Below, one piece after another: positions 7,801 to 10,430 of a DNA stretch of 64,000 nucleotides (position 1 is the first letter of the stretch; each line of letters starts with the position of its first letter). Below the pieces are notes generated by a model. The model was not told the DNA's origin. It was given only the letters and a program-made list of their open reading frames with translations, and did not search any database. The stretch is from Nesterenkonia lacusekhoensis (GTDB taxonomy: Bacteria > Actinomycetota > Actinomycetes > Actinomycetales > Micrococcaceae), in assembly GCF_017876395.1 (NCBI RefSeq), contig NZ_JAGINX010000001.1, forward strand, positions 124,001-188,000. The letters are read 5' to 3'. Position numbers and translations under genes: made by a program.

Positions 7801-7845
7801 CTTCACGGATGATCTCCTCCGTGCACCTGAAAGGACACAGTGCGC

Positions 7846-9072
7846 ATGCCGCAGTCTCTGAACCCAGAGGAACAGATCCTCGTCAGCACCGCGGGGTCCC
7901 TTCCCCGGACGCCCGAGCTGATCGCCGCCAACGCGGCCCGCGAACTCGAGGATGACGGGTTCACCCTGAAACGGACCCCGGAGTTCGACGCACTGCTCAC
8001 CGACGCCGTGGTCGATCTGGTCCAGCGCCAGGCGGAGCTCGGTGTGACACTGCCGGGCGACGGCGAATTCGGCAAGGCGATGTCATCGGCCGTGGACTAC
8101 GGCGCCTGGTGGTCCTACATCTTCCAGAGGGTGGGCGGTCTGGAGGTGACCGGCGAGAACCTCTTCACCTGGCCCCACCAGGAGTCCTCCCCGGGGGACC
8201 TGAAGCTGACGAATATGCTCAACCGCCGCGACTGGGTGAGGTTCCGGGACTTCTACACCGGGGACTCGCCCACTGGCGAGCACGCCGTGCCGTTCCCGGC
8301 CACCACCGGTGAGCTGACCTGGCGCGGTCAGGACGCAGTGGAGACCGATATCGCCAACCTCAAGAAGGGCTTGGAGGCGGCCGGGGTCGAGCAGGGGTTC
8401 CTGACCTCCATCGCTCCCGGCTCCGGGGCACGTGTGCCCAATTCGCACTACGCCAGTGAGGAGGAGCATCTCTACGCCTGGGCCGAGGTGCTGCGCAACG
8501 AGTACAAGGCCATCACCGACGCCGGCCTGATCCTGCAGCTCGACGACCCCTGCCTGGCCGAGAACTGGGACCAGATCACCCCGGAGCCCTCGGTGGAGGA
8601 CTACCGGAGGTTCACCCAGCTGCGGATCGAGGCGCTGAACTACGCCCTGCGCGACATCGACCCCGAACTGGTCCGGCTCCACATCTGCTGGGGCTCCTGG
8701 CACGGGCCGCACACCACGGACCTGGAGTTCCGCCACATCGCAGACCTGTGCCTGGGTGCGGATGCGAAGTACTTCACCTTCGAGGCCGGCAACGTCCGCC
8801 ACGAGCACGAGTACACCGTCTGGGATGACCTGAAGCTTCCTGAAGGCAAGGTCATCGTTCCGGGAGTGGTCTCCCACGCCACCAACGTGGTGGAGCATCC
8901 GGAGCTGGTCGCCCAACGTCTGACTCGCTTCGCTGAGCGGGTGGGTGCGGAGAACGTCCAGGCCGGCACCGACTGCGGGCTGGGCGGGCGTCTCCACCCG
9001 GACATCGCCTTCGCCAAGCTGGAGTCCCTGGGCCAGGGCGCGGCCTTGGCCTCACAGCGTCTGCTGGGCTGA
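7846..9072 (+). CDS. Cobalamin-independent methionine synthase II (MetE C-terminal-like) family protein
   Basis: A 408-residue protein corresponding to the C-terminal catalytic half of MetE, the same fold as epoxyalkane:coenzyme M transferases. Zinc-ligand positions are visible: RLHICWGSWHG (His and Cys), a Glu in KYFTFEAGN, and Cys in QAGTDCGLGG. It lacks the N-terminal half of true MetE (about 750 residues), so the methyl donor and acceptor are uncertain. Methyl transfer to a thiol is likely. The ATG at 7846 is preferred over a GTG at 7840 because AAAGGAC ends 9 nt before it. It is convergent with the SAM-I-controlled small gene, which supports a role in methionine metabolism. Confidence 0.8.
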   Translation: MPQSLNPEEQILVSTAGSLPRTPELIAANAARELEDDGFTLKRTPEFDALLTDAVVDLVQRQAELGVTLPGDGEFGKAMSSAVDYGAWWSYIFQRVGGLEVTGENLFTWPHQESSPGDLKLTNMLNRRDWVRFRDFYTGDSPTGEHAVPFPATTGELTWRGQDAVETDIANLKKGLEAAGVEQGFLTSIAPGSGARVPNSHYASEEEHLYAWAEVLRNEYKAITDAGLILQLDDPCLAENWDQITPEPSVEDYRRFTQLRIEALNYALRDIDPELVRLHICWGSWHGPHTTDLEFRHIADLCLGADAKYFTFEAGNVRHEHEYTVWDDLKLPEGKVIVPGVVSHATNVVEHPELVAQRLTRFAERVGAENVQAGTDCGLGGRLHPDIAFAKLESLGQGAALASQRLLG

Positions 9073-9125
9073 GCGCGGCTCACGCGCACCCTGCTGCTGT
9101 CAGGTCACCAGTGGTCAGTCAGCTC

Positions 9126-9284
9126 TCATGCGGGGAGCATCCGACACTCCGGGTCCTGCGGGTCCTCGGCGGCACGGCGCTCCAGGCGTGCCCCGGGGAT
9201 CGGCGGCAGCGCAGAGGCCGCAAGCGCCAGGAAGGTGTCCGTCTCAGAGGAGATCTGGGAGAAGAGAGTGTCAGTCCGCGACAT
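9126..9284 (-). CDS. 52-residue protein under a SAM-I riboswitch, function unknown
   Basis: A small ORF starting MSRTDTLFSQISSETDTFLA and ending in DPQDPECRMLPA. Residues 1-22 can form an amphipathic helix; the middle is Ala/Pro-rich; there is a single Cys near the C-terminus. There is no signal peptide or membrane segment. GGAAAGGAC lies 5 nt before the ATG and directly follows the closing helix of a SAM-I riboswitch, so expression should fall when S-adenosylmethionine is abundant. It lies downstream of cysK on the same strand and faces the MetE-like gene. I do not recognise the family. It may encode a small sulfur-metabolism effector; a leader-peptide role is less likely because nothing follows it on that strand. 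Confidence 0.65.
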   Translation of the reverse strand: MSRTDTLFSQISSETDTFLALAASALPPIPGARLERRAAEDPQDPECRMLPA

Positions 9285-9296
9285 GATGAGTCCTTT

Positions 9297-9401
9297 CCAT
9301 CGTCGGATCCGTGAAGATCCCCTGGCGGTAGCACCCGGCAGAACAGAGTCCCCGGGTTGCTGCGGCGTCGTCGAGCCAGATCTCTCAGCCGCTCTGGATG
9401 G
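9297..9401 (-). promoter_or_regulatory. SAM-I (S-box) riboswitch
   Basis: Read on the minus strand, the region carries the S-box core: CCATC (P1), AGAGCGGCTGAGAGATCTGG, a CGACGACGCCGCAGCAACC block matching the usual GAUGAAACCCGGCAACC, CCGGGTGCTACCGCCAGGG matching GGUGCUAAUUCC, a GGATC/GATCC hairpin (P4) and GATGG closing P1. The GATGG strand is followed at once by AAAGGAC, the ribosome-binding site of the 52-aa ORF. There is no terminator, so control is probably at translation initiation. Confidence 0.85.
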
Positions 9402-9467
9402 GTGCATGCGCTGATCTCAGCGCCTCTCCAGGCTACCCCGCTGGGGCAGGCTGCGGAACCATCAGCG

Positions 9468-10430
9468 TCACACTGCTTCACCCGCGGTCGGGATCCTGCC
9501 GCTGTAGAGGCCGGTGGACAGGTAGCGCTCGCCGCTGTCGGCGAAGACGGTCACGATGGTCTTGCCCTCGTTCTCCGGGCGCACCGCCAGCTGACCGGCG
9601 GCATGCAGGGCCGCACCGGAGGAGATGCCCACCAGCAGCCCCATGGAGCCGGCGAGCTCCCGCGCTACGCGGTAGGCCTCGGCACCGGGGACGTCGAGGA
9701 TGTCGTCGGCCAGTTCCAGGTCCAGCACCGGCGGGACCCCGTTGCCGCCGATGATCCCCTGGATCAGGTGGGGGTTGAATCCCTCGCCGCCGTTGCGCAG
9801 CACCGGAGCCTCGGCCGGCTCGACGGCGACCACCTGCACGTCAGGGTTCTGGGACTTCAGGTATTCGCCGGCGCCGGTCAGCGTGCCGCCGGTTCCTGTG
9901 GTCGCCACGTAGAAGTCCAGCTGCCCGTCGGTGTCGCGCCAGATCTCCGGGCCGGTGGTCTCACGATGGACCTTCGGGTTGGCGGGATTGCCACCCTGCC
10001 CGGCCAAAAATGCTCCGGGAGTCTCCTCCACGATCTGTCCGGCCCTCTGGTTGGCTCCGGCCATCGCATCTCTGCCCGGGGTCAGCACCACGTCGGCGCC
10101 CAGGGCCTCGAGCAGCGAGCGGCGCTCCACTGACGCGTCATCAGGCATCGCGATGATCACCTTGTAGCCCAGCGCGGCGCCCACCCAGGCCAGGGCGATG
10201 CCGGTGTTGCCGCTGGAGGCCTCCACGATGGTGCCCCCGGGAGGCAGCTTCCCCTCAGCGGCCGCCGTCTGCACGATCGACAGCGCCGTGCGGTCCTTCA
10301 CGTTGGAGGCGGGGTTGTAGAACTCCAGCTTGGCCAGCACTGTGGCCCGGGCTCCCGGGACAGCAGCGGTGACATCCAGCAGCGGAGTGTTGCCGACCAG
10401 TTCGGTGGGGTTTGAGTATATGCGGGCCAT
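9468..10430 (-). CDS. cysK: Cysteine synthase (O-acetylserine sulfhydrylase)
   Basis: A 320-residue fold-type II PLP enzyme making cysteine from O-acetylserine and sulfide. The PLP lysine is in NPASNVKDR (about residue 45), the substrate loop is EASSGNTGIAL (about 72), the phosphate-binding loop is TTGTGGTLTGAG (about 180), and the C-terminal Ser is in GISSGAAL. Length is typical of CysK. AGGA and GGAGG elements precede the ATG. The SAM-I riboswitch and 52-aa ORF begin 66 bp downstream on the same strand and could be read from the same transcript. There is no adjacent cysE. Confidence 0.93.
   Translation of the reverse strand: MARIYSNPTELVGNTPLLDVTAAVPGARATVLAKLEFYNPASNVKDRTALSIVQTAAAEGKLPPGGTIVEASSGNTGIALAWVGAALGYKVIIAMPDDASVERRSLLEALGADVVLTPGRDAMAGANQRAGQIVEETPGAFLAGQGGNPANPKVHRETTGPEIWRDTDGQLDFYVATTGTGGTLTGAGEYLKSQNPDVQVVAVEPAEAPVLRNGGEGFNPHLIQGIIGGNGVPPVLDLELADDILDVPGAEAYRVARELAGSMGLLVGISSGAALHAAGQLAVRPENEGKTIVTVFADSGERYLSTGLYSGRIPTAGEAV

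Follow-up and report, generated by a model that had tools for sequence, protein, structure and literature searches.

A SAM-I riboswitch precedes, and probably controls, a small lineage-restricted open reading frame in Nesterenkonia lacusekhoensis

SAM-I (S-box) riboswitches strongly predict genes for methionine and sulfur metabolism, so an orphan open reading frame (ORF) immediately after such an element deserves attention as a possible small protein connected with SAM shortage. Such a locus lies in the 64,000-nucleotide stretch of Nesterenkonia lacusekhoensis DNA that we analysed (hereafter, the window; positions 124,001 to 188,000 of contig NZ_JAGINX010000001.1). A preliminary description had placed there, on the minus strand at 9126-9401, a SAM-I riboswitch and a 52-codon ORF (ORF52). 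What does this riboswitch control? In our reading, a canonical SAM-I riboswitch probably controls ORF52, a small lineage-restricted ORF, and would do so most likely at translation. The features discussed below are as follows, with positions in the window.

7840..9072, plus strand: MetE-like protein of 410 aa with a Meth_synt_2 domain, convergent to ORF52 (PF01717, 28.8 bits, cut-off 21)
9126..9284, minus strand: ORF52, an orphan small ORF of 52 aa, from ATG at 9284-9282 to TGA at 9128-9126, conserved in N. cremea
9291..9296, minus strand: Shine-Dalgarno site AAAGGA, with no gap after the P1 strand GATGG (sequence reading)
9294..9404, minus strand: full-length SAM-I (S-box) riboswitch aptamer, RF00162, 111 nt (covariance model; first 83 bases identical in N. 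cremea)
9297..9301, minus strand: 3' strand of P1, GATGG (sequence reading)
9305..9320, minus strand: P4 hairpin GGATCTTCACGGATCC (GGATCT-TCAC-GGATCC), the variable part of the aptamer (sequence reading and fold)
9397..9401, minus strand: 5' strand of P1, CCATC (sequence reading and model fit)
9408..9423, minus strand: perfect 16-base palindrome GCGCTGAGATCAGCGC, a putative 5' hairpin or operator just 5' of the aptamer, identical in N. cremea
9430..9435, minus strand: TAGCCT, a -10-like hexamer of the form TANNNT, candidate promoter (sequence reading)
9468..10430, minus strand: cysK-type cysteine synthase, ending 63 bases before the aptamer (TIGR01139, 360.6 bits, cut-off 350.95)

To characterize the aptamer, we searched the whole window with cmscan. 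The sole SAM-I match, at 9294-9404 of the minus strand, scored 62.2 bits against a gathering score of 44.4 (window E-value 4.9e-12) and covered the full RF00162 model (1-108); among the four SAM-I matches of the organism's own genome, it had the top score. This above-cut-off match on the minus strand bears out the S-box core, the P1 strands CCATC/GATGG and the P4 hairpin that had been read there by eye. The range first given placed ORF and element correctly but omitted the first three bases of the match. A ribosome-binding site directly after the 3' strand of P1, then an ATG, had also been described, with the 52-codon ORF as the sense-strand output of the riboswitch; indeed, AAAGGA (9296-9291) adjoins P1, the ATG (9284-9282) comes after it, and the frame runs 9284-9126. 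By its sequence, the element is a genuine, ordinary SAM-I riboswitch of known class, which adds nothing new by itself.

The same arrangement is found in Nesterenkonia cremea, where the cysK, SAM-I, ORF52 and MetE-like locus is syntenic with that of the window. Protein identities were 96% for CysK, 77% for ORF52, 94% for the MetE-like protein and 85% for a MocR-like protein; the gene flanking the MetE-like gene, which we take to be yajQ-like, is also in synteny. Conservation was uneven along the leader. The aptamer before P4 showed 0 differences in 83 positions, whereas 7 of 22 positions differed in P4 and after it (9321-9300); the N. cremea hairpin was nonetheless retained in a fold with P1 enforced. 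The stretch around the ribosome-binding site (9299-9285) differed at 1 of 15 positions.

Length alone says little here, as 39% of random sequences with the local composition stay open for 51 codons; the evidence for ORF52 is therefore its conservation and not its length. The preliminary description had expected a real gene to keep its start, stop and synonymous bias in relatives with the same riboswitch, and in the one relative found, N. cremea, start, stop, frame and synonymous bias are all kept, with zero indels. The two versions differ at 26 of 159 nucleotides (9, 5 and 12 at the three codon positions), and these differences cause 12 amino-acid changes where 17.2 were expected (P 0.009; 20,000 permutations of substitutions). 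The corresponding dN was 0.140 and dS 0.336 (dN/dS 0.42). The other two frames of the strand contain stops in N. cremea. After the ORF52 stop, 25 of 46 positions differ, so conservation ends near the end of ORF52. GC content at the three codon positions was 68/58/81%, the same order as in cysK and the metE-like gene. Constraint on ORF52 is weaker than on its neighbours, for which dN/dS was 0.060 (cysK), 0.070 (metE-like) and 0.226 (yajQ-like). Because a single relative was found, the coding signal rests on 26 substitutions in one species pair. Judged from this comparison, ORF52 is probably a translated, fast-evolving gene under moderate purifying selection.

A gene truncated in a common ancestor could look like ORF52, and the strongest rival explanation starts from there: the original SAM-regulated gene would have been truncated or lost in the ancestor of both species, leaving an orphaned riboswitch with a leftover 5' end or a fortuitous frame behind it. 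The faster evolution of ORF52 relative to its neighbours and its unremarkable length both fit such a history, and the genus offers a precedent. At G006:C68:15012 (L052, minus strand), a SAM-I element precedes an ORF of 57 aa. The beginning of this ORF shares 14 of 18 residues with a luciferase-like monooxygenase of G026 (PF00296) that is itself under SAM-I control, and the similarity is lost thereafter; this locus is, by sequence comparison, a stranded riboswitch with a gene remnant. Against the same origin for ORF52, its frame, start and stop have been kept across the 26 substitutions with amino-acid changes below expectation, and the border of conservation falls near its stop codon. Nor did it resemble the N-terminal ends of the genus's SAM-I-controlled frames more than shuffled sequences did (P 0.72 for the window version, 0.985 for that of N. 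cremea); comparison with whole proteins gave P 0.11 and 0.22, respectively, and ORF52 was rejected as the start of another SAM-I-controlled gene. We therefore regard a remnant as unlikely, while still the alternative to be taken most seriously.

We then asked how widely ORF52 occurs. That it belongs to no recognised family, as had been proposed, held up: there was no match in Pfam, NCBIfam, PHROGs or PDB sequences. Protein searches found relatives in 2 of 58 genomes, N. lacusekhoensis itself and N. cremea; 30 of the 58 belong to the genus, which makes 2 of 30 there. Scanning a genome contig collection with the single sequence returned no relative and missed N. cremea too, so the sensitivity of that scan was limited; an alignment of the two sequences matched in Nesterenkonia cremea CGMCC 1.15388 only. 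A plasmid tblastn search with ORF52 gave no match. A three-row profile, whose third row is a small ORF of genome G003 that is probably unrelated to ORF52, matched in 36 of 149 family genomes (E <= 0.1), and none of the 20 loci checked among its 29 new ones had an Rfam match at gathering score. The two-row profile matched in 5 of 396 order genomes, our own and four others. Five weak matches were judged to be chance: two (L201, L202) fall within much longer frames, of 990 and 483 aa, and three (L203, L204, L205) overlap annotated-size frames on the opposite strand.

The G003 ORF just mentioned lies at G003:C8:80417 (L033/L098, plus strand), where a SAM-I element precedes a 32-aa ORF; an ATGA overlap joins this ORF to a membrane-like one of 64 aa, and a PF03601 (Cons_hypoth698) protein comes next. 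The 32-aa ORF was rejected as a relative of ORF52; BLASTP gave no alignment, and the two aptamers are not specially close. Beyond N. cremea, the genomes searched thus held no convincing relative, and ORF52 appears, on present sequence comparisons, to be a gene of two Nesterenkonia species. Literature searches found no report on riboswitches in Nesterenkonia and none on a SAM riboswitch with a small ORF in actinobacteria, and the part of PMC3766115 available to us holds nothing on the cysK / SAM-I / ORF52 locus.

To place the locus among other SAM-I elements, we surveyed the genus. RF00162 matched in all 30 genomes (120 matches, two below cut-off), and the downstream frames were read for all 120; by this reading, ORF52 is present at the orthologous pair only. 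Ten targets, chosen by hand and typed with Pfam, comprised two ABC transporter ATPases, three luciferase-like monooxygenases, two acyl-CoA-dehydrogenase-like proteins, a flavin reductase, a sulfite/nitrite reductase and an OsmC-like protein. We infer that the SAM-I regulon of the genus looks like one of methionine and sulfur supply. At G016:C1:821325, a SAM-I element stands ahead of an apparently broken transporter frame. Among 68 other SAM-I loci of the family, five (L173, L174, L175, L180 and L186) have GATGGAAAGGA with a start codon 8-14 bases past the aptamer end, and their genes encode 363-449 aa. By contrast, 37 of the 68 have no Shine-Dalgarno-preceded start of a frame of at least 100 aa close to the aptamer, so a Shine-Dalgarno site next to the aptamer is not the family rule. 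At two loci of another genus of the family (L176 and L195), SAM-I is followed by frames of 55 and 51 aa, respectively, and then by larger genes.

The neighbouring enzymes had been suggested as partners of the small protein. The MetE-like protein, which does not reach the cut-off of any of the six NCBIfam families listed, is present in 18 of 30 genus genomes, CysK (E <= 1e-100) in 4 of 30 and ORF52 in 2 of 30; ORF52 is thus not a general partner of either enzyme. These counts make the MetE partnership unlikely. The two congeners that carry cysK but lack ORF52 have different genes downstream of cysK, and its 1.5 kb flanks there gave no match to an Rfam riboswitch. Separately, the MetE-like gene of G016 (62% complete) is apparently split in two frames (L073/L074; G016:C1:2597253 and 2596799); a sequencing error is possible there because the transporter frame after the SAM-I element at 821325 looks broken too.

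The convergent MetE-like gene, whose stop codon is separated from that of ORF52 by 53 bases, raises a further explanation, in which transcription from the riboswitch side at low SAM would enter the MetE-like gene and repress it. An S-box of Clostridium acetobutylicum sets a precedent (PMC9943018, accessible portion), and the element lies opposite to, and within 500 nt of, the MetE-like gene, which is the distance given for antisense riboswitches in that portion of the paper. In the window, we found no terminator-like site between ORF52 and the MetE-like gene, and the intervening sequence is no more stably folded than its shuffled versions (z 1.13). In N. cremea, however, a strong hairpin occupies the intergenic space (-71 kcal/mol for the 126-nt fold, z -5.74), which weakens the case and makes antisense control less likely; having no T run, this hairpin is no terminator by the consensus scan. 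An intact ribosome-binding site and a coding-like ORF would be unnecessary for such a role, and by coordinates the MetE-like gene lacks a neighbouring SAM-I match in all 16 other genus genomes that carry it. We consider antisense control very unlikely.

Upstream of the aptamer, the positions 9433-9405, which include the palindrome, show 0 of 29 differences from N. cremea, whereas 9 of 38 differ between cysK and TAGCCT (four bases are shared by the two regions). A scan listed inverted repeats of at least 6 bp upstream of 11 of the 120 genus SAM-I elements, and GCGCTGAGATCAGCGC among them only at the ORF52 pair. This palindrome could cap a stable small RNA, and the RNA is more strongly conserved than ORF52; both would suit a product that is the RNA itself, a terminated or processed SAM-I RNA acting in trans on other mRNAs with ORF52 incidental. 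SreA and SreB of Listeria are SAM-I RNAs that act in this way. Strong conservation is, however, also expected of cis-acting aptamers, and the ribosome-binding site together with conservation that ends near the ORF52 stop points to translation, so we hold a trans-acting RNA to be highly improbable here. A 93-codon frame also runs through the aptamer in frame with ORF52 (9407-9126, minus strand), with its ATG right after the palindrome; it has no internal stop in either species, probably a chance effect of the aptamer's conservation as an RNA.

The source of the transcript may be a weak local promoter at TAGCCT or read-through from cysK, with which ORF52 is possibly co-transcribed. Within 8900-9700, we found neither a sigma-70 consensus site nor a terminator-like site, including between cysK and ORF52. 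The distance from the start of TAGCCT to the aptamer is 31 bases, whereas it is 11-18 bases for 99 of the 144 TANNNT matches counted 7-40 bases upstream in the 120 genus SAM-I leaders. Two further motifs recur within 100 bases upstream of genus SAM-I elements, namely TGAACAT/ATGTTCA boxes, present in 27 of 120 leaders against a shuffle mean of 1.6 (maximum 6), and GTCTC..TGnGA boxes, present in 18 against a shuffle mean of 0.2 (maximum 2); related genomes among the 120 inflate both counts. They suggest a transcription factor acting alongside the riboswitches; the ORF52 leader has neither box.

Taking these observations together, we return to control of ORF52 by the riboswitch. With SAM plentiful, the aptamer and the P1 helix would be stable, and because the stabilised P1 abuts the Shine-Dalgarno site, we propose that the 30S subunit would be hindered and ORF52 not made; with SAM low, P1 would open and ORF52 would be translated, from a transcript beginning at TAGCCT or reading through from cysK. 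That control is exerted at translation is argued from anatomy, namely the Shine-Dalgarno site abutting P1, the lack of a terminator-like site and the similar layout at the five family loci. In RNA folds, the Shine-Dalgarno site was not clearly hidden in a SAM-dependent way; it was unpaired in the free fold of the window sequence, half paired in that of N. cremea and partly paired with P1 enforced. The output would be a protein of 52 aa, for which a helix is predicted at the N terminus. A single-sequence AlphaFold model placed helices at residues 3-25 and 45-48 with low confidence (mean pLDDT 69.6, pTM 0.33), too weak for a fold search.

As for function, our guess is that ORF52 adjusts sulfur amino acid metabolism when SAM is scarce, perhaps by acting on the enzyme product of a neighbouring gene, for example CysK. 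A more specific version, which we think unlikely, casts ORF52 as a novel small regulatory protein that is produced exclusively at low SAM, came about recently within a single Nesterenkonia lineage by falling under the control of a SAM-I riboswitch downstream of cysK, and binds and tunes CysK or another enzyme of sulfur amino acids; if true, a young gene would already be wired to a metabolite sensor. What the comparisons indicate is a standard riboswitch with an orphan, real-looking target that is restricted to two species among the genomes searched. The locus is also a case, amenable to testing, of an old metabolite sensor placed ahead of a lineage-restricted gene.

Known systems resemble this locus in part. 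Actinobacterial cys operons have leader peptides (PMC1262725, as far as its accessible text goes), which likewise are small ORFs tied to actinobacterial genes for sulfur amino acids. By contrast, ORF52 has no run of Met or Cys codons (2 Met and 1 Cys, scattered) and no same-strand gene to attenuate, the next gene being the convergent MetE-like one; both points speak against an attenuator leader peptide. The antisense-acting S-box of the Clostridium acetobutylicum ubiG-mccBA operon is, in the portion of PMC9943018 available, also a SAM-I element convergent to a gene related to methionine metabolism; here, however, the element is followed by an ORF that has a ribosome-binding site of its own, and N. 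cremea has the strong intergenic hairpin. The SAM-I element of the Xanthomonas campestris met operon acts mainly on translation, as we propose for ORF52, and has features of its own in that it controls methionine synthesis genes and senses uncharged initiator tRNA (PMC7270179, from the excerpt available). With the RF00162 class as a whole, the element shares the full-length model match, the core, P1, P4 and a sense-strand position upstream of a ribosome-binding site; it differs in its target, which is here an orphan 52-aa ORF, whereas the ten typed genus targets are transporter ATPases, oxidoreductases and an OsmC-like protein.
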